From: Acidobacteriota bacterium
GTDB lineage: Bacteria > Acidobacteriota > Vicinamibacteria > Vicinamibacterales > UBA823
Direction: 5' to 3'
Assembly: GCA_002730525.1 (NCBI GenBank)
Contig: PCAK01000036.1
Location: 1 to 64,000 of the forward strand
DNA: 64,000 bases
Positions 44,228 through 54,416 of the stretch are shown piece after piece. The position numbers and the translations under genes are program-made. Each line of letters starts with the position of its first letter. Within the stretch, counting starts at the first letter, position 1. Below the pieces are notes generated by a model. It ran no database searches. It saw only the letters and a program-made list of their open reading frames with translations, and was not told the DNA's origin.

Positions 44228-45967
44228 TTAGTCGGTCACGCTCTTCCAGCCGCGCTTCTTCAGGTGGTGGTGCAGCAGGAACCCGGCGCCCAGCGCGCAG
44301 GCGGCATACGGCACCGCGGCCGAGAGCGACTGGAAGAGCAGCGCACCGATTCCGAACAGCGTGCTGTAGACGAGCACCCAGCCGGCGATCCAGTCGATGA
44401 CCAGACTGCCGATCGCCTCCGGCGGTGGATCGCCGGCGGCGCGAGCGATTCGGGCCCATCCCGGACCGCCCGGCCGGACCCTCCGGTAGAACGCAATGAG
44501 GTGATCCATCGGCTCGGGTGGGGTCAGGAAGGTCACGACAAGCCAGCAGACGGTCGTCCACGTGACGAGGTAGAAGAGGGTGGACGGGAACGCCACCTCG
44601 GTGAAGAGCTTGAGGTAGGCGAAGCCGATCGCCGGCGCCACCAGCGCGGTCACCTCCGACCACGCGTTCACGCGCCACCAGTACCACCGGAGAATCAGGA
44701 CTAGACCGATGCCGGCGCCGGACTCGAGAATGAACTCCCACGCCTGGCGGATGCTCTCGAGATAGAAGGTCGTCACCCCGCCGAGTGCCATCAGGATGAG
44801 CGTCGTCAGGCGCGCCGCCCTGATGTAGTGCCGGTCGTCCGCATCCGCACGGACGAAGCGCCGGTAGAAGTCGTTGATGACGTAGGAGCAGCCCCAGTTG
44901 AGCTGCGTGCCGATCGTGGACATGTAGGCGGCGAAGAAGGCGCCCAGCAGCAGACCGCGCCACCCTACGGGCAGATGATCCCGGAGGACCATGACGTAGG
45001 CGGCCTCGCGGTCGGCCACCGACGGGTACAGCACGATCGAGGCGAGTCCCACGAGAATCCAGGGCCAGGGTCGGATGCAGTAATGGGCGATCGTGAACCA
45101 GAGCGTGGCTAGCAGCGAATGGCGCTCGTCCTTCGCTGACATCATCCGCTGCGCGACGTAGCCGCCGCCACTGGCTTCCTGGCCCGGGTACCAGCTGGCC
45201 CACCACTGCACGCCGACGAACGCGATGAACGCGGCGACCGGGAGAGCGAACGTCTCGGCCGTCGACGCGTCGCCGCCGATCGTTGGCATGAACTGGAACG
45301 TCGAGTCGGGAAGCGATTCCCGCAGACCGGCGATGCCGCCGACTGCCGGCAACCGCAGCGCGAACCAGGCGAGTGCGATGGTGCCGCCTATGGCCAGGAT
45401 GAATTGCACGAGGTCGCCCATGACGACGCCCCAGAGGCCCGAGACCGACGAGTACACCCCGGTGAAGGCCAGGCTGATGAGCACCGCCGTCAAGCGGTCC
45501 CAGCCCATCGTGACCAGCAGGATCTTGGCCATGGCCAGGTTGACCCAGCCCATGATGAGGAAGTTGATCGGCAGGCCGAGGTACAGCGCCCGGAAGCCCC
45601 GGAGAAAGGCGGCGGGCCGCCCCGTGTAACGCAGTTCGGCGAACTCGACGTCGGTCAGGATGCCGGCGCGGCGCCAGAGTCGGGCGAAGAAGAACACCGC
45701 CAGCGTGCTCCCAAGGGCGGCGTTCCACCAGATCCAGTTGCCGGCGATCCCGTCCCGCGCGACGATGCCGGCGACGGCGAGCGGGGTGTCGGCCGCGAAT
45801 GTCGTGGCGACCATCGACGTGCCGGCGAGCCACCACGGCAGCGAGCGCCCAGAGAGAAAGTACTGGTCGACGCTAGTGCCGGCACGACGGTAGAAGGCCA
45901 TGCCGATGGCAAGGACGACCACGAAGTATCCGATGATGACCGCCCAGTCGATCGCCGTCAGCGTCAT
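44228..45967 (-). CDS. Sodium:solute symporter family protein
   Basis: A 579-residue integral membrane protein with the SSS fold of about 13-14 membrane segments. WAVIIGYFVVVLAIGMAFYR, then YFLSGRSLPWWLAGTSMVAT mark the first helices with the Na+ site, and VQWWASWYPGQEASGGGYVA, then RMMSAKDERHSL are typical of the subgroup. It ends RGWKSVTD. Substrates in this family include sugars, sialic acid, amino acids and other solutes. It is seven bases after the serine hydrolase on the minus strand and belongs to the murQ-linked cluster, so a muropeptide or amino-sugar substrate is the best guess. Confidence 0.9.
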   Translation of the reverse strand: MTLTAIDWAVIIGYFVVVLAIGMAFYRRAGTSVDQYFLSGRSLPWWLAGTSMVATTFAADTPLAVAGIVARDGIAGNWIWWNAALGSTLAVFFFARLWRRAGILTDVEFAELRYTGRPAAFLRGFRALYLGLPINFLIMGWVNLAMAKILLVTMGWDRLTAVLISLAFTGVYSSVSGLWGVVMGDLVQFILAIGGTIALAWFALRLPAVGGIAGLRESLPDSTFQFMPTIGGDASTAETFALPVAAFIAFVGVQWWASWYPGQEASGGGYVAQRMMSAKDERHSLLATLWFTIAHYCIRPWPWILVGLASIVLYPSVADREAAYVMVLRDHLPVGWRGLLLGAFFAAYMSTIGTQLNWGCSYVINDFYRRFVRADADDRHYIRAARLTTLILMALGGVTTFYLESIRQAWEFILESGAGIGLVLILRWYWWRVNAWSEVTALVAPAIGFAYLKLFTEVAFPSTLFYLVTWTTVCWLVVTFLTPPEPMDHLIAFYRRVRPGGPGWARIARAAGDPPPEAIGSLVIDWIAGWVLVYSTLFGIGALLFQSLSAAVPYAACALGAGFLLHHHLKKRGWKSVTD

Positions 45968-45973
45968 GGCGGA

Positions 45974-47035
45974 TCAGTCGGTGACGGCGCGGTCCGCCAC
46001 GTCGACCACGGCGTCGTGCAGGGCGCGTCGGACGGCCTGGATAGCCTCGGCCTCGAGCACGGCAGGGTGGACCCGATTGGTCAGGAACACGATGTAGAGA
46101 TCGCGCGCGGGATCGATCCAGAGCGAGGTGCCGGTGAACCCGGTGTGCCCGATCGCCGAGGACGACAGGCGGCGCCCGCACGACGAGGTCGGCAGCATCG
46201 TATCCCACCCTAGCGCTCGGGAACTGCCTGGCACGCCGACGCGCCGGACAAAGTGGCGCACGGTGTCCGGCCGGGCGAGGGTCGGCGCGCCCGCCAGCCC
46301 GTTCAGGACCAGGCGCGCGAATCGTCCCACGGCGGCGGCCGTGCCGAAGAGTCCGGTGTGGCCGGCCACCCCGCCGAGCGCCCAGCCGTTGTCGTCGTGC
46401 ACTTCGCCGACCAGGCGGCGTCCACGCCAGCGGTTGTCCCCGGCGGGCGCGATCGAACCGGGCGCGGGCGTCGGCACGTATCGCAGGCCGGCCAGGCCAC
46501 AGGCCTCAGCCACGCGCTCGAACTGTGCGTCGAGCCCCTCCTTACCCAGGTCTTCGAGTAGAAACCCGAGCAGGATGAAGCCGAGGTCGCTGTAGACCGA
46601 CTTCGTGCGGGGCCGGTACTCGAGCGGAAGCCGGCAGATCCGTGGCTCGAACTCGGTGCGACCGACTCGATCTCGAAATAGCGGCTGGTGCGCCGCGAGG
46701 CCGCCGGTGTGCGCCAGGAGGTCCGCGATCGTCACGCCGGATCGGTCGTCGCCGCGCCAGAGGGCTAGGTGTTCGCCGATGCGGTCGGTGAGCGCGAGGT
46801 GTCCGTCGTCGAGGTGATGCATGGTGAGCGTCGTCGTCGCGACGACCTTGGTGAGCGAGGCGAGATCGAAGACGGTGTCGAGGCTCGTGGGCGCGGCGCC
46901 TGCGTCGTAGGTCAGGGTGCCCCAGGCGCCCACCCACAGCGGGCCGTCGGCGCGGCCGATCTCCAGGGTGGCCGCCGGGAAAATACGGGCCTCGACGGCC
47001 CGTCCGATGATCGCCGAGACCTCGCCGAAGCTCAC
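45974..47035 (-). CDS. Serine hydrolase, beta-lactamase class C/DD-peptidase family
   Basis: A 353-residue protein with a GTG start at 47033-47035, preceded by AGGAG and overlapping the stop of the next symporter gene by four bases. The penicillin-recognising enzyme motifs are SLTK (in [20 protein letters not shown]), a Tyr-Ser-Asp element ([12 protein letters not shown]) and HTG in [19 protein letters not shown]. There is no signal peptide, so it works in the cytoplasm. Given its neighbours it may hydrolyse imported muropeptides or D-amino acid peptides; an esterase role is also possible. Confidence 0.9.
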
Positions 47036-48558
47036 GCGGCTGCTCCTGACGGATCGGCGGCGAGGGCGTGCGCCAGCCAGGCGGCTCCGAACGTCGCACT
47101 CGAGCCGATGAGGACATACCACTGCCACGAGATCGGTGTGAACGTTCGGATGCCGAGCATGAAGAGGATGCCGGCCACGATGCCAACCAGGGCGGCCCGC
47201 GGCCCGATCCGCGTCGTCAGGGTGCCGAGCAGAAACGTCCCGAGCAGGACGCCGTTGGTGAACGAGGCGATGCCAAGGACCTCGTCGACGACGCGGGTCG
47301 ACAGTTCGATGGCCGCGACGGCGACACCGAGTTGGACCACGCCCCAGCCAACCGTGGCCCAGCGCGAGACCGTCAGGTAGTGCCGTTCGGATCGGGCGTG
47401 GCCCGTCAGCGGCATGTAGAAATCGGCGAGCAGGGCGGCCGACGACGAGTTCAGGGAGGACGACAGCGTGGACATGGCGGCCGCGAAGATGGCGGCGAGG
47501 ACCAGGCCGACGATCCCCGGTGGGAAGTGCGTCACGATGAAGTGCGGCAGGATGCGGTCGGTCTGTACCGCTCCACCCACCGTGAACGCGGCGATGTCGC
47601 CTGGCGCGTAGGTCGTGTAGTAGACCCACAGCATCACGCCGATGAGCAGGAACAGGACGAACTGTGTGAACACCACGACGCCGCTGACGAGGAGCGCCGT
47701 CGTCGCCTGGCGCGGTCCCCGGCTGCATAGATACCGCTGCACCATGAGTTGATCGGTGCCGTGCGTGGCGGTCGTGAGGAAGGCGCCACCGATGACGCCC
47801 GACCAGAACGTGTAGTCGCGAGAGAGGCTCAGGCTGAAGTCGAAGAGCCGGAACTTGCCGGCCGCGCCGGCCACCTCGACCACCTCGGTCCAGCCGCCCG
47901 GAATGCGGTCGAGGGCGATCGTCGCGGCGAATCCGGTGCCGATCAGGTAAATGGCCAGCTGGATCACGTCGGTCCAGATGACGGCTCTCATCCCGCCGAG
48001 AAAGGTGTAGGCAATGGTCACGGCCGCGATCGCCAGCACGGACAGGACGAGCAGGCCGGTCGTGGGCTCCAGCCCCGGGAGCCACCGTGCCGCGAGCGCG
48101 CTGGTGCCTGGCATGACGAGCAGTAGCGCGGACAGGACGAGCCCGGTGGCGAACAGGCGGAAGCCGTCAGCGAGACTGCGTGTGACGAGAAACAGCGCCG
48201 AGGCGAGTCGGCGCACGTTGTCGTCGAAGCGGCGGCCGAGTATCTCGTAGACGGTCAGGAGGTCGCCGCGAAAGTACGCCGGGATGAACAGCAGGGTGAT
48301 CGCCACTCGGCCGACGAGATAGCCGACGACCAGTTGGAGGAAGGTCAGATCGGCGCCGTAGGCGAATCCCGGCACGCTGATCAAGCTGACCGTGCTGGTC
48401 TCGGTGGCGACGATCGAGCCCATGATCGCCCACCAGGGGATCCGACGTCCGGTGATGAAGTAGTCGCGGACGTCGCGCTGCGCCCGCGAGAAATAGGCGC
48501 CCAGCAGGACGGTCCCGAGGAGGTAGGCGACCAGGACGATGAGATCCAGTGCGCGCAT
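47032..48558 (-). CDS. Sodium:solute symporter family protein, second copy
   Basis: A 508-residue SSS transporter. [20 protein letters not shown], then [20 protein letters not shown] represents the helix 1-2 region with the substrate and Na+ sites, and [20 protein letters not shown], then [20 protein letters not shown] and [14 protein letters not shown] are hallmark segments of SSS members. It is only distantly similar to the 44228-45967 copy, so the two probably take different substrates. It overlaps the serine hydrolase gene, implying co-translation, and follows the GHL10 hydrolase by 53 bases. Confidence 0.9.
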
Positions 48559-48611
48559 CGGGAATGTCCGAGCGGTCCACCGCTGCCGCGGGGCGACGCG
48601 GTGGGCCGCGG

Positions 48612-49859
48612 TTACCGGGATCCGGTTGCGACGGTGTTGATGCCGAAGGCCGCCTCGGCGACCTGGGCGAGGTAGTCAGCGCCGTGCTGCGCCTGATCGG
48701 TCAGGCTGTCGTACGAGAAGAGGACGATCCCGTCGGCGCGGTGTCGGCGTGCGGCGCGAATGTTGTCGATCGTTTGTCCGGGTGAGAGGCGGTACGCCCC
48801 GATCCCGGCCCAGAGATCGTTCGAGGTGGCGATCTCCCGTATGGCGGCGATCTGCGATTCGAACACGGCGGGGTCCTGAGTGTAGGCCATCGGGCAGGCG
48901 ACATCGAGGAGGCCGCTTTCGAGCCAGGTCCGCCAATCCTGGAAGCGGTGCGCCAGGGCGTCGGCTTCGTCGGGGACGAGCGCGGCGCTGAAGACCGCAT
49001 CGGGGCGGCGGCGCTTCACCACGGTGCGGAGCCGCATCAGGAGCGACGTCAGACGCGAGCGGCGCAGCGCGGTCCACCGTTCGGGATAGCGGTCGGCGTA
49101 GGCCGTGGGCCGAACGCGGGCGCGGGCATCCATGCGCAGGCGTTCCTCACCGGACAGATGCGGCCGGACGTCGGCGCGCAACTCCGCCATGGCCGACCGG
49201 CTGAAGTCGAAGCGGTCGTCGGGGAATCGGATGTAGTCGAGGTGGATACCGTCGACCGGGTAGCGGGCGACCAGATCGTCGAGGACCTCGGCCGTGTACT
49301 CCGCGGTGCCCGGCGCGAGCGGCGACAGATAGAGGCCTTCCACGGCGTCGAGGTGTTCCCGCGTCCAGCGCGACAGCCGGCCGAGGTAGCTTGGAGTGTC
49401 CGGCTCGATCGTGGCCAGTTGCTCCGCCAGGTCGCGAGGGACCATCAGCCACTCGGGGTGCCGGTACACGATGTGCTGCCGGGACGCCGGCAGGTCGTTG
49501 GCACTGGCCACGAGGTTGACGTTGACCCACGCATGCACCCGCAGGCCCTCGGCGTGGGCCGAAGCGATCAGCGCCTGGAGCGGGTCGAAGCTCGCCTGCT
49601 GGAACGCCAGCGCCGCGGCGCGCGGGTCGACCCCGGCGGTGAAATAGGCATCGCCTCGACCGCGCACCTGCACGAGCACCGTGTTGAATCCGTGATCGCG
49701 GGCGGTTCTGACGATGGCTTCGACCGAGGAGGGTGAGGTCAGCGACGTGCGGACCACCCAGAGTGCCCGTACTTCATCCAGGGGCTGGCTCGCTGCCGAG
49801 GTCGGCAGCACGCATGCCAGCAGAAGCGCGGCGAGGGCGCGGATGGACTGAACGAGCAT
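48612..49859 (-). CDS. Exported GHL10-family glycoside-hydrolase-like protein
   Basis: About 415 residues from the ATG at 49857-49859, with a signal peptide ([20 protein letters not shown]). The TIM barrel of the glycosyl-hydrolase-like 10 family (formerly DUF187) is recognisable from [20 protein letters not shown], then [42 protein letters not shown] with the family Asp-Tyr, and [11 protein letters not shown]. coli YngK and related enzymes act on glycans of the envelope. In this operon the likely target is peptidoglycan, releasing material that the two symporters import. Confidence 0.88.
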
Positions 49860-49892
49860 GGGGAGCGTCGTCGGGGGCAAAGGAAACGAGTG

Positions 49893-49922
49893 ACTGTATC
49901 AGGCAGGTTAACGCACTGTCAA
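49893..49922 (-). promoter_or_regulatory. Promoter of the GHL10-symporter-hydrolase genes
   Basis: On the minus strand a perfect TTGACA (-35), an 18-base spacer and TACAGT (-10) lie between murQ and the GHL10 gene, 34-63 bases before its start. The operon can therefore be transcribed independently of murQ. Confidence 0.72.
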
Positions 49923-49931
49923 CGCGGCACT

Positions 49932-50936
49932 TCAGCTCAACCCGCGTCGAGCGTCAAGGACCTGCCGGAGCCGTGCCTCGGCGTCCTCGCCGATGGCGTC
50001 GCCGACGGAGTCGCCGGCGGCCTTGAGACGGCTCATCGCCTTGGTATACGAGTCACCGGTCTTCTGCATGACGATCGCGGCCTTGATGTTCCAGCGCGCA
50101 TCATGCAGCAGCACGTCGGCGTCGTCGTATTCCAGATCGGTGATGAGGCCGATGATGCGGAGGGCTCGGTCACGGTGCTTCTGCGACCCGGTCTTCACGT
50201 CGACCATCAGATTGCCGTAGGTCTTGCCGAGTCGGACCATCGGGATGGTGGTCAGCATGTTGAGAACCATCTTCGTGGCCGTTCCGGCCTTGAGCCGCGT
50301 CGAGCCAGCAATGACCTCGGCCCCGACGACCGGCGCGATGGTGACGTCGACGAAGGTCTGCAGTTCGGTGCCGGGCCAGCAGGTGACGAAGACCGTCTTG
50401 GCGCCGGCCTTGCGGGAGCGCGTCAGTCCCCCACGGACGAACGGCGTCATCCCACTGGCCGAGATCCCAATCAGGACGTCACGCTTGGTCGGTCGGATTC
50501 GCGCGACGGCCCTGACACCACTCTCGTAGCTGTCGTCCAGGGCTTCCTTCGACCGGAAGAACGCGTCGCGGCCGTCCGCCATGATCGCCTGGACGAGGGT
50601 CGAGGACGTACCGAACGTCGGCGACATCTCCGCGGCTTCGAGCACGCCGAGTCGGCCGCTCGTGCCAGCGCCGACAAAGACGAGTCGGCCGCCCTTCCGG
50701 AGCGCCTCGGTGACCAGATCGACGACCACGGCGATGCGCGCGCGCTCGCGGTGGACCGCGCTCACGATTCTTCGGTCTTCGGCGACCATCAGATCGACGA
50801 TGTCGGCGGTCGACGCCTTGTCGATCCCCATGCTGGCCGGATTGATGGCTTCGGTCGGCAGGGCCTGCCACTTGGAACTGGAAACTTTGCCGGCCGCGGG
50901 TCGGCGGGGGCTGCGGCGATTGCTATCCGCGGACAT
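49932..50936 (-). CDS. murQ: N-acetylmuramic acid 6-phosphate etherase
   Basis: A 334-residue SIS-domain lyase that splits the D-lactyl ether of MurNAc-6-phosphate to GlcNAc-6-phosphate and D-lactate. TEAINPASMGIDKASTADIV is the typical start of the family, followed by GRLVFVGAGTSGRLGVLEAA, then EMSPTFG with the catalytic Glu, ALDDSYESGVRAV, VLIGISASGMTPFVRGGL and GSTRLKAGTATKMVLNMLTT. The C-terminal three-helix bundle is complete. It identifies the whole minus-strand cluster as cell-wall recycling. No AnmK, NagA or MurP homologue lies in the window. Confidence 0.97.
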   Translation of the reverse strand: MSADSNRRSPRRPAAGKVSSSKWQALPTEAINPASMGIDKASTADIVDLMVAEDRRIVSAVHRERARIAVVVDLVTEALRKGGRLVFVGAGTSGRLGVLEAAEMSPTFGTSSTLVQAIMADGRDAFFRSKEALDDSYESGVRAVARIRPTKRDVLIGISASGMTPFVRGGLTRSRKAGAKTVFVTCWPGTELQTFVDVTIAPVVGAEVIAGSTRLKAGTATKMVLNMLTTIPMVRLGKTYGNLMVDVKTGSQKHRDRALRIIGLITDLEYDDADVLLHDARWNIKAAIVMQKTGDSYTKAMSRLKAAGDSVGDAIGEDAEARLRQVLDARRGLS

Positions 50937-51058
50937 GTTCGCGATTGGTGGCTAGCGTGGCCGGTTCCGGCCTGGCATGCATGTTAGGCTGAGGCCGTTC
51001 AGGGAAGGTTACTCGAACTTGCGGGTCTCCGAGAAGGGCCGCGACGGGAGGGAGAGTG

Positions 51059-52636
51059 ATGAGCGCGACTTCGAGTGGTGCGGGCCTTCGGCACGGAGTC
51101 CTGGCAGTGCTGGTCGTCGGCGTCCTGGGCGCGAGTCTCGGGTGCGGCGGCGCGCCGGCCCCGGAGGCGCGGGACACGCTTGTCTTCGCGGCGCCGGCGG
51201 ATGCCACGGTGCTCGATCCCCACAACACGACGGACAGCCAGTCCGATCAGGTCGTCCTGATGCTGTTCGATACGCTCATCACGTTCGACCAGGAGATGAA
51301 CATCGTCCCGGATCTGGCCGAACGCTGGAAGGTCGCCGAGGATCAGGTGACCTGGACCTTCCATCTGCGTGAAGGCGTGACGTTCCACGACGGCGCCAGG
51401 TTCGATGCGGAAGCCGTGCGGGCCAACTTCGCGCGCGTCCTCGACCCCGAGCAGAATCACAAGCGGTTGCCGCTCTTCGAGATGATCGATCACGTCGAAG
51501 TGATAGACGACTACACGGTGAATATCGTGACGGCGTATCCGTTCGGGGCGTTCGAGCCGACGATGGCGCACGTGTCCGCGGCGATCCTGAGCCCGGCGGC
51601 GGCGGCGACGCACGGCGGTGAGTTTGGCCGTTCCGCGGAAGCCACGTCCGGGACGGGGCCGTACCGGGTTGTCAGGTGGACGAAGGATTTCGAGATCGTC
51701 CTCGAACGCTTCGACGATTACTGGGGCGAGGCGCCCCCGGTGAAGCGGGTCGAGTATCGGCCGATTCCAGAGGCGGCGTCGCGCGTGATCGCCCTCGAGG
51801 CGGGTGACGTCGACGTGATCACCCACATCCCGCCGACGGACCTCGCGCGCCTGGAGGAGGAGGCAGCAATCGACGTGCACAAGGTCGTGAGTATCGGCGC
51901 GCAGCAGTTCCGGTTCAACCATGCGCGGCCGCCGTTCGACGACCCGCGCGTGATCCAGGCGATCTCCTATGCGATCGACCGGCGCGCCATCGTCGAGAAT
52001 CTGATGCCTGGGCTGGTCGAGGTGTCGACCGGCGCGCTCACGCCGATCATGCGGGGCTACGCCGAACTGGGCGAGATCAGCCAGGATCAGGGTCGGGCGC
52101 GCGCGCTGCTGGCCGAGGCCGGCTATCCGGACGGCTTCTCGACGACGATTTCAACGACGCCCAGGTACCTGATGGGCGTGGAACTGGCCGAGGTCATGGC
52201 GGCGCAGCTCGGCGAGGTCGGCATCGAGGTCGACATCAACGTGTTGGACTGGGGATCGATGGTCGCGTTCTGGGAGGGCCTGCTGCCGGAGAACAATCCG
52301 CAGGAGATCTTCATCATGGGCGCCGGGGCCTCGACGGCCGACGCCGACTGGGGGCTCCGGCCGATCTTCCAGACCCACCCGACCAACGAGAACAACTACG
52401 GCTACTACTCGAACGCCGAGTTCGATCGGGTGATCCAGGAGGCGATGCGGGAGACCGATCCCGACGCCAGGCAGGAGCTGTATCGCCGCGCCCAGGAGAT
52501 CGTGTACCTCGAAGATCCTGGAGCAGTCTGGCTCTACGACAACTACTTCATCCTGGGCGCCCGGAGCGGCGTCGTGGACATCACGCTATCGCCGCTCGGC
52601 GTCGTGACCTTCGAGCGGGCCGCCTTCAGAGAGTGA
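51059..52636 (+). CDS. ABC transporter substrate-binding lipoprotein (peptide/nickel family)
   Basis: A 525-residue protein from the ATG at 51059, with GGGAGGGAG upstream. The signal ends VVGVLGASLGCGG, a lipobox, so the protein is membrane-anchored. It has the family 5 SBP pattern: DTLVFAAPADATVLDPHNTT at the start, PDLAERWKVAEDQVTWTFHL, REGVTFHDGARFDAEAV, and WGEAPPVKRVEYRPIPEAAS in lobe II. It captures peptides or other solutes. Permease genes follow at once (GTGA overlap), but no ATP-binding subunit is in the window. Confidence 0.92.
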   Translation: MSATSSGAGLRHGVLAVLVVGVLGASLGCGGAPAPEARDTLVFAAPADATVLDPHNTTDSQSDQVVLMLFDTLITFDQEMNIVPDLAERWKVAEDQVTWTFHLREGVTFHDGARFDAEAVRANFARVLDPEQNHKRLPLFEMIDHVEVIDDYTVNIVTAYPFGAFEPTMAHVSAAILSPAAAATHGGEFGRSAEATSGTGPYRVVRWTKDFEIVLERFDDYWGEAPPVKRVEYRPIPEAASRVIALEAGDVDVITHIPPTDLARLEEEAAIDVHKVVSIGAQQFRFNHARPPFDDPRVIQAISYAIDRRAIVENLMPGLVEVSTGALTPIMRGYAELGEISQDQGRARALLAEAGYPDGFSTTISTTPRYLMGVELAEVMAAQLGEVGIEVDINVLDWGSMVAFWEGLLPENNPQEIFIMGAGASTADADWGLRPIFQTHPTNENNYGYYSNAEFDRVIQEAMRETDPDARQELYRRAQEIVYLEDPGAVWLYDNYFILGARSGVVDITLSPLGVVTFERAAFRE

Positions 52637-53574
52637 CCGCCGCCCTCGCCGCGTTCGGCCGTCACGTCGCGCGTGCGCTCGTGCAGGTCGTGCCCGTCCT
52701 GTTCGGCATCTCGCTGCTCGTCTTCCTCGTCGTCCACTTCATTCCCGGCGATCCGGCCGTCATCGCGGCGGGTCTCGAGTCGAGTCCGGAGGTCGTTGAG
52801 CGGATCCGGACGGAGCTGGGGCTCGACTTGCCGCTCCACCAGCAGTTCTGGCGTTTCCTGAGTGGTGCGGTGCAGGGGGACCTGGGCGAGTCGATTCGCA
52901 CGGGCCGGCCGGTAGCGCAGGAGATTGTCGAGCGGTTTCCCCACACCTTTCGGATCGCCCTGGGTGGGACGCTGCTGGCCGCGCTGCTCGGGCTCCTGGT
53001 CGGCGTCACGGCGGCGATCCACCACAACCGCCTCTGGGACAACCTCATCATGGTGTTGACGCTGGTGGCCGTGTCGACGCCGTCGTACTGGCTGGCCCTG
53101 ATGTTGATGCTCCTGTTCTCGCTCGAACTGCGCCTGTTGCCGTCGATCGGGGTCGGCACGCCGCTGCACTACGTCTTGCCGATCCTGACGCTCGGCATGC
53201 AGTCGGCCGGCCTCATCGCCCGGATGACGCGGTCGACGATGCTCGAGGTGCTGCGTCAGGAGTACATCCGGACCGCGCGAGCCAAGGGCCTGGTCGAGGT
53301 CGTGGTCGTCTACAAGCACGCGCTGCGGAACACGCTCATCCCGATCGTGAGCCTCATCGGGCTCCGGTTCGGCGGCCTGCTCGCGGGCACGGTGCTCGTG
53401 GAGAGCGTCTTCGCCATTCCGGGCATGGGACGGATGATCGTCGAGGCGGTGCTCAACCGCGACTTTCCACTCCTTCAGGGATCGGTGCTGGTCGTGGCGA
53501 CCGTGTTCGTCCTGACGAATCTGCTGGTCGACCTGGTCTACGCCATCGTCGATCCGCGGCTGCGAACGGCCTGA
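52633..53574 (+). CDS. ABC transporter permease, DppB type
   Basis: A 313-residue permease with a GTG start overlapping the binding-protein stop. The first helix (VQVVPVLFGISLLVFLVVHF) and the PGDPA motif right after it mark the DppB/OppB group. The EAA loop is in VLRQEYIRTARAKGLVEVVV, where it contacts the ATPases, and six membrane segments can be traced. It pairs with the DppC-type gene 11 bases downstream. Confidence 0.92.
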   Translation: MTAALAAFGRHVARALVQVVPVLFGISLLVFLVVHFIPGDPAVIAAGLESSPEVVERIRTELGLDLPLHQQFWRFLSGAVQGDLGESIRTGRPVAQEIVERFPHTFRIALGGTLLAALLGLLVGVTAAIHHNRLWDNLIMVLTLVAVSTPSYWLALMLMLLFSLELRLLPSIGVGTPLHYVLPILTLGMQSAGLIARMTRSTMLEVLRQEYIRTARAKGLVEVVVVYKHALRNTLIPIVSLIGLRFGGLLAGTVLVESVFAIPGMGRMIVEAVLNRDFPLLQGSVLVVATVFVLTNLLVDLVYAIVDPRLRTA

Positions 53575-53585
53575 GCGGGGCGCAC

Positions 53586-54416
53586 ATGCTGCAGCGATTC
53601 CGGGCGAACACGGCGGCGGTGGGTGGGGCAACGGTGATCGCGCTGTTCATCGCGGTCGCGGTCGTCGGTCCATCGTTCGCGCCCCACGATCCCCTGGCGC
53701 AGGATCTGTTTTCGAACTACCAGTCATCGAGTTGGGCGCATCCGCTCGGGACCGACCATCTGGGTCGGGACAATCTCAGCCGGATGATCTACGGTGCGCG
53801 CGTCTCGTTGACCATCAGCGTGACCAGTGTGGTGTTCGGACTGATCATCGGCATGGCGATCGGGCTCGTGGCGGCCTACAGCCGGGGTATCGTCGATGTC
53901 GTCTTGATGCGAGTCGTCGACATGCTGCTCGCGTTTCCCGACATTCTGCTGGCGATCGCGATCATCGCCGTGCTGGGTGAAGGGATCGTTAACACGATCA
54001 TCGCCGTGGTGGTCTACAGCGTGCCGCAGTTCGCCCGGATCGTGCGTGGTGCCGCGCTCTCCGTCATCGAAGCGGACTTTGTCAGCGCGGGCCGGGCCTT
54101 GGGTGCGTCGCATCCGCGTCTCGTGCTCCGCCACGTCGTGCCGAACTGTCTGTCGCCGATCGTCGTGCACGCGACGATCATGCTCGGGACGGCGATTCTC
54201 ATCGCCTCCGGTCTTTCTTTTCTAGGCCTTGGGGTGCAGCCGCCCGATCCCGAGTGGGGCGCGATGCTGTCGAAGGGGCGAGAGTTGCTGCGGAGCACGC
54301 CGATCGCCGCGGTGGCGCCGGGCGTTGCCATTACCGTGGTCGTGCTGAGTTTCAGCATCGTCGGCGACGGTCTGCGCGATGCGCTGGATCCGAAGCTGGA
54401 ACGGGAGGTGCGGTGA
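53586..54416 (+). CDS. ABC transporter permease, DppC type
   Basis: A 276-residue permease. The N-terminal helix (GGATVIALFIAVAVVGPSFA), PHDPLAQDLFSNYQSSS and HPLGTDHLGRDNLSRMIYGA are the DppC/OppC hallmark. The EAA loop is IEADFVSAGRALGASHPRLV. The gene ends GDGLRDALDPKLEREV, as is usual. The sulfatase gene starts two bases after its stop codon (TGAG-ATG). Confidence 0.92.
   Translation: MLQRFRANTAAVGGATVIALFIAVAVVGPSFAPHDPLAQDLFSNYQSSSWAHPLGTDHLGRDNLSRMIYGARVSLTISVTSVVFGLIIGMAIGLVAAYSRGIVDVVLMRVVDMLLAFPDILLAIAIIAVLGEGIVNTIIAVVVYSVPQFARIVRGAALSVIEADFVSAGRALGASHPRLVLRHVVPNCLSPIVVHATIMLGTAILIASGLSFLGLGVQPPDPEWGAMLSKGRELLRSTPIAAVAPGVAITVVVLSFSIVGDGLRDALDPKLEREVR

Follow-up and report, generated by a model that had tools for sequence, protein, structure and literature searches.

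The 64,000-nucleotide stretch of DNA analysed here (the window; contig PCAK01000036.1 of assembly GCA_002730525.1, from an Acidobacteriota bacterium) carries five closely packed genes on one strand (minus) at positions 44228-50936. They encode a MurQ-type N-acetylmuramic acid (MurNAc)-6-phosphate etherase, a GHL10 glycosidase-like protein, a sodium:solute symporter (SSS1), a serine hydrolase related to PBP4B and a second sodium:solute symporter (SSS2). Our preferred hypothesis, to which we assign a probability of about 0.5, is that these genes form a MurNAc salvage operon in which MurP, the carrier of the phosphotransferase system (PTS), has been replaced by a Na+-coupled symporter, with SSS1 transporting MurNAc or one of its close derivatives. 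We infer the substrates and reactions from the genes, their order and conservation, the symporter phylogeny and a residue signature, which are established.

In the proposed scheme, exported enzymes (the GHL10 protein and a protein in which a PBP4B-type domain is fused to the exo-muramidase NamZ) would cut the glycans of peptidoglycan and free MurNAc-containing pieces in the periplasm. SSS1 would bring in MurNAc or a close derivative together with Na+, and an arginine in its third transmembrane helix (TM3) might pair with the lactyl carboxylate. The leaderless hydrolase would work inside the cell on the imported material, most likely by stripping the stem peptide from MurNAc, and MurQ, going by its family function, would convert MurNAc-6-phosphate to N-acetylglucosamine-6-phosphate. 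SSS2 may serve as an accessory carrier, perhaps for a sugar. A broader hypothesis, possible if somewhat doubtful, is that SSS1 represents a new family of Na+-coupled MurNAc or anhydroMurNAc carriers with an invariant TM3 arginine. Such carriers would take the place of PTS MurP in Streptomyces, some Bacteroidota and the taxonomic order of the window, and in the window they would supply a cytoplasmic PBP4B-type amidase with the role of AmpD but an unrelated fold.

Conservation of the gene cluster

The five consecutive genes had been recognized in a sequence-only reading of the window, and open reading frames (ORFs) and family matches confirmed them at those positions. All five reading frames are open in the window, the SSS1 and hydrolase genes overlap by four bases (GTGA) and the remaining intergenic gaps, calculated from the coordinates, are 51, 53 and 6 bases long. 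Conservation was assessed in a sample of 100 genomes of relatives, of which 91 had a MurQ match at E 0.001 and 87 a strong match. From the latter we inspected 40 murQ loci in stretches of at most 19.5 kb, many of them ended by contig ends; the sample is not random, the first 30 loci being those with the best MurQ scores. Genes in the relatives were called with a home-made codon score, and those missed in three loci (L050, L052 and L053) were read there by tblastn. For the kinase and for NagB, one representative each was assigned to its family with Pfam.

The order murQ, nagB and murK (opposite strand), GHL10 gene, SSS1, hydrolase, SSS2 was unbroken in all 40 loci, although individual genes may be absent. 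Because the genes that are present hold the same order throughout, the arrangement goes beyond chance, and the conservation check suggested by the sequence-only reading thus came out in favor of the cluster. Within 11 kb of murQ in the 40 loci, we identified the hydrolase 31 times, the GHL10 protein 25 times, a BadF-type kinase 21 times, SSS1 18 times, NagB 17 times and SSS2 10 times. Where 8 kb or more of downstream sequence was available (26 loci), the corresponding numbers were 24 for the hydrolase, 17 for GHL10, 13 each for the kinase and SSS1, 11 for NagB and 8 for SSS2. The hydrolase was also found near murQ in loci without either symporter. Furthermore, nagB and/or the BadF-type kinase gene (murK) adjoin murQ in about half of the 40 loci. 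Of the 58 genomes in which murK is strongly matched, 54 have it no more than 10 kb from murQ; the remaining four lack a strong match to MurQ.

SSS1 as a candidate MurNAc carrier

SSS1 matches the SSF family (PF00474) with 134.5 bits (cut-off 22.8) in a genome with 19 SSF matches that correspond to about 17 proteins. Its best match in the PDB is the sialic acid carrier SiaT (5nv9), with which it shares a larger clade in both of the symporter trees that we inferred, one from 55 rows and one from 43 rows, obtained by removing 19 rows (11 symporters of the same genome, ActP and 7 near-copies) and adding 7. In both trees the SSS1 proteins formed one group, joined to murQ-linked symporters of the Bacteroidota (support 95/81 with 55 rows and 94/92 with 43 rows). 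The joined rows, from two Sphingobacterium, one Gelidibacter and one genome of a Tannerellaceae set, all adjoin murQ or murK. Hence, a grouping of SSS1 with carriers of unrelated solutes, which the sequence-only reading had named for both symporters as the outcome that would speak against it, was seen in neither tree. Among the 25 listed of 97 matching plasmid records, the top row by bits (172) was a Streptomyces symporter beside anmK, which joins SSS1 with weak support (84/43 in the 43-row tree). Its gene, on a Streptomyces plasmid (L325:3923-6979), stands directly before the gene for an anhydroMurNAc kinase.

The residue comparison, which used all 62 symporter rows, revealed an arginine at the position of SiaT residue 139 in TM3 (Arg134 in SSS1) in all 20 mur-linked rows and none of the 42 others, a signature that represents few independent cases since 13 of the 20 rows are SSS1 orthologs. 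It is located four residues beyond the position of SiaT Arg135, which is described as binding the carboxylate of sialic acid (PMC5931594). The same paper describes Ser60 and Thr/Ser63 of SiaT as binding a carboxylate, and both are present in every one of the 20 mur-linked rows, being common also in the others (22 and 31 of 42, respectively). The side chains of the Na2 and Na3 sites are kept in the SSS1 of the window.

The serine hydrolase

The hydrolase matches PF00144 with 151 bits and carries the motifs given in Table 1. Its best NCBIfam match is PBP4B (PRK03642) with 115.5 bits, the next one scoring 36.8 bits; because the equivalog cut-off of PRK03642 is 385 bits, we consider it a relative of PBP4B and not an equivalog. 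Identity as a class C beta-lactamase was rejected, the best class C model scoring 28 bits against cut-offs of at least 415. Compared with E. coli proteins, it is 30% identical to YfeW (122 bits) and scores 49 bits with AmpH and 28 bits with AmpC. It is 39% identical (155 bits) to a serine hydrolase on a Thermomicrobium plasmid, which sits near anmK, nagA, a BadF kinase gene and murQ.

No hydrophobic leader was seen in 36 of 37 rows of hydrolase orthologs, as judged by a hydropathy measure and not by a signal-peptide program, and the 37th is cut or odd at its start. In 22 of the 37 rows, the space before the homologous start allows no more than 10 additional residues. The highest mean hydropathy over 15 residues was 1.91, in a row that is cut at its start (L083), and none was strongly hydrophobic. 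Thus, the view of the sequence-only reading that the enzyme has no leader is upheld, whereas its class C-type label gives way to a PBP4B/YfeW-like one. An action on MurNAc-containing substrates is supported by the fusion of a PBP4B-type domain to NamZ and by the E. coli gene order murQ-murP-yfeW. Judging from the subfamily and the neighboring genes, the reaction would most likely be an amide cleavage that removes the stem peptide from MurNAc.

Probably exported enzymes

The GHL10 protein matches its family with 96 bits and begins with a stretch that, by eye, resembles a signal peptide. In a sequence comparison with the PDB down to a limit of E 0.1, it matched Cwp19 alone, and it is 24% identical to DigH over 343 aligned positions. 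Elsewhere in the window genome (L109:7003-9879; G000:C28), a PBP4B-type domain is fused to a NamZ exo-muramidase in a protein with a signal-like N-terminus, which is probably exported; this domain is 36% identical to the cluster hydrolase over 343 residues. NamZ was found twice in the genome, both times outside the cluster, and the second copy has no visible leader.

The second symporter

SSS2 matches SSF (PF00474) with 117 bits (cut-off 22.8) and falls, in both trees, on a branch that differs from that of SSS1 and is shared with symporters of Indioceanicola and Phocaeicola. At an identity of at least 54% it was identified in 32 of the 100 relatives, in 18 of them within 12 kb of murQ. These were kept apart from paralogs with 43-48% identity, which occur in 42 genomes and in none of them within 12 kb of murQ. 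Eight of the 14 SSS2 loci away from murQ were read, and these included four with SSS1-hydrolase-SSS2 and four with SSS2 alone (G024, G029, G056 and G066). In the former, no murQ is nearby: G027 and G054 lack a strong match to MurQ, the contig is broken in G002, and G003 is 74% complete. The tie of SSS2 to murein is weak because SSS2 is also found alone, off the cluster. The suggestion of the sequence-only reading that both carriers import pieces of peptidoglycan found no evidence, SSS2 being on another branch and alone in four of the eight off-cluster loci, and nothing favored muropeptides, the other cargo it had named, over free MurNAc or anhydroMurNAc.

Arguments against the salvage hypothesis and alternative explanations

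Several observations weigh against the hypothesis of a MurNAc salvage operon, some of which concern MurQ and its pathway partners. Glu83 and Glu114 are catalytic residues of E. coli MurQ. The MurQ of the window passes the equivalog cut-off of TIGR00274 (325 bits, cut-off 302) and keeps Glu83; its activity is nevertheless not assured because Glu114 is replaced by Asp. The replacement is present in five of five MurQs read from the window's family and, among all MurQs read, in 8 of 33 genomes that lack MurK as opposed to 0 of 30 that have it, a difference for which the Fisher p of 0.005 is overstated since the eight genomes are spread over three families and are not independent. None of the eight has a strong match to a BadF-type kinase, and one (G047) has a weak MurK match of 38% elsewhere in its genome. 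A second MurK-lacking family (f9) has kept Glu114 in the 11 genomes read.

The window genome is 99.2% complete, and family searches identified no AnmK, no BadF-type MurK and no NagB in it, with AmgK, ROK and FGGY kinases and NagZ outside the search. AmpG was likewise not found by family search and full-length NagA is absent, with 11 partial matches all below the cut-off. Of the partner genes that the sequence-only reading had proposed to look for, the genome thus yielded only these partial matches to NagA. With the MurK of the relatives as query, there was no match in the window genome, in any of 9 genomes of its family (several of them incomplete) or in any of 13 genomes of f9. Two BadF-family matches in the window genome were rejected as MurK, their gene set resembling benzoyl-CoA reductase (by eye, from the N-termini); at L107:3978-8113 (G000:C15) lies such a benzoyl-CoA-reductase-like set with two BadF-type ATPase subunits, again by eye. 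MurQ may be supplied by a different kinase, or else the pathway is being lost in the window's family.

Other points of this kind concern SSS1. An SSF gene stands next to murQ or murK in only 4 of 51 Bacteroidota-side murQ loci (50 from Bacteroidota and one verrucomicrobial, many in stretches that reach only 1.5 kb to each side). With 1.8-1.9 changes per column, the branch of the Bacteroidota rows is long, and its composition is odd; its placement, obtained without a clade test, is therefore unsure. The Arg139 signature is a post hoc observation, and L228 and L240, both counted among its mur-linked rows, are 5-6 kb from murQ (18 of 18 without both). SSS1 has Ala and Val in place of the SiaT ligands Arg135 and Gln82, and 14 of the 20 mur-linked rows, including SSS1, have Glu at SiaT position 58, which is odd for an acid-binding pocket. 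The Na2 and Na3 residues are not kept in every mur-linked row. Furthermore, G027 and G054 keep SSS1-hydrolase-SSS2 in the absence of a strong MurQ match, and the published PTS-independent MurNAc carrier of Tannerella forsythia, TfMurT, possibly belongs to a family other than SSF, as considered below.

We also considered three other explanations. It is somewhat unlikely that SSS1 carries another acidic or amino sugar, for example a sialic-acid-like one, and belongs to the operon because such sugars are used together; the similarity to SiaT would fit, whereas the loss of Arg135 and Gln82 and the sharing of a different TM3 arginine with the mur-linked symporters would not. It is unlikely that SSS1, the hydrolase and SSS2 constitute an independent module, acting for example on D-amino-acid amides, peptides or other hydrolase substrates, with murQ merely as a frequent neighbor. 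G027 and G054 have retained such a module, with the same four-base overlap of SSS1 and hydrolase, but 31 of 40 loci have the hydrolase close to murQ, some of them without either symporter, and members of its subfamily accompany mur genes in E. coli and Thermomicrobium. Decay of the pathway in the window's family, which would make the cluster a remnant with a drifted MurQ and no known kinase, NagA or NagB left, seems improbable to us: the lack of MurK in all nine genomes of the family and the distribution of Asp114 are as expected from decay, whereas five open frames, the 76-97% identity of SSS2 within the family and the conserved Glu114 of f9 are not.

Features of the window and neighboring genes

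The coordinates are collected in Table 1. The divergent intergenic region upstream of murQ likely holds the promoter of the operon, as its position suggests. Beyond it, at 51056-54416, lie genes for a peptide-type ATP-binding cassette (ABC) transporter (a binding protein and two permeases), divergent from murQ and with no ATPase gene directly after them; the binding protein was found near murQ in 1 of the 40 loci of relatives, in a species of the window's own genus. The loci of G027 and G054 (L284 and L285) resemble the window in the pseudopilin-like genes that follow downstream.

Table 1. Features of the proposed MurNAc salvage operon, with positions in the window.
Feature	Position	Strand	Basis
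murQ, MurNAc-6-phosphate etherase family; retains Glu83 and has Asp for Glu114 (E. coli numbering)	49932..50936	-	ORF and family search
GHL10 glycosidase-like protein, probably exported	48612..49880	-	ORF and family search
SSS1, sodium:solute symporter, proposed MurNAc-type carrier	47032..48558	-	Best PDB sequence match SiaT 5nv9
SSS1 Arg134 codon CGC (SiaT position 139)	48157..48159	-	Residue comparison
PBP4B/YfeW-type serine hydrolase, GTG start, without visible leader	45974..47035	-	Motifs SLTK (SxxK), YSD, HTG and GEVHD
SSS2, second sodium:solute symporter, on a separate branch	44228..45967	-	ORF and family search
Divergent intergenic region between murQ and plus-strand peptide-type ABC transporter	50937..51055	.	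Coordinates

Comparison with known systems

The uptake of MurNAc in bacteria without a MurNAc PTS is a poorly covered topic. A concrete candidate for the carrier is provided by symporters that share a single signature residue and neighbor mur genes in distantly related bacteria; among the titles and beginnings of abstracts listed by full-text searches of an open-access library, with most subscription papers outside this coverage, no such carrier was recognized beyond the work on TfMurT. Streptomyces coelicolor, for example, is described as recycling MurNAc without having an ortholog of MurP (PMC5061867).

The closest parallel to the cluster is murQ-murP-yfeW in E. coli, in which etherase, carrier and PBP4B-type hydrolase follow each other in the same order, with SSS1 in the place of murP. 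The E. coli carrier is, however, a PTS protein and not a Na+ symporter, the hydrolase of the window is 81 residues shorter than YfeW, and the window adds a GHL10 gene and a second symporter. AmiE of Bacillus subtilis is a PF00144 protein, and the B. subtilis gene ybbC is one that we take to encode NamZ. Both belong to the cluster murQ-murR-murP-amiE-nagZ-ybbC, in which AmiE is described as a MurNAc-L-alanine amidase (PMC5061867), so that etherase, carrier and amidase are together in one cluster, along with ybbC. There, the carrier is of the PTS type and AmiE is described as working outside the cell, whereas the window has a Na+ symporter and a leaderless hydrolase, and its NamZ genes are located elsewhere in the genome.

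PTS-independent uptake of MurNAc beside murQ has been described for T. forsythia, with the genes murT-murK-murQ (PMC5790795, PMC5388701, PMC7670621), and MurT was placed in the sodium symporter superfamily (PMC5790795). Two loci (L268 and L269) match the nine-gene order given for the T. forsythia operon (PMC5388701), and the protein in the place of murT (L268:3332-4681 and L269:3343-4692) is of the HGSNAT_cat/DUF5009 type and not SSF, with Pfam run on L268 only. By synteny, this conflicts with the published wording of a sodium symporter superfamily (PMC5790795), and TfMurT was dropped as an ortholog of SSS1. Another genome of the Tannerellaceae set (L270) has an SSF protein in the same place. 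SSF carriers beside murK-murQ and MurT therefore look like alternatives to each other, as judged by synteny.

SiaT resembles the SSS1 of the window in its larger SSF clade and in the Na2 and Na3 sites, Ser60 and Thr/Ser63; it differs in Arg135 and Gln82, both replaced in SSS1, whose arginine is situated further along TM3. Finally, the GHL10 proteins DigH of E. coli (PMC12288456) and Cwp19 of C. difficile (PMC6016235) are described as cutting the glycans of peptidoglycan, and by analogy the same activity is predicted for the window protein, with which they share the GHL10 domain.

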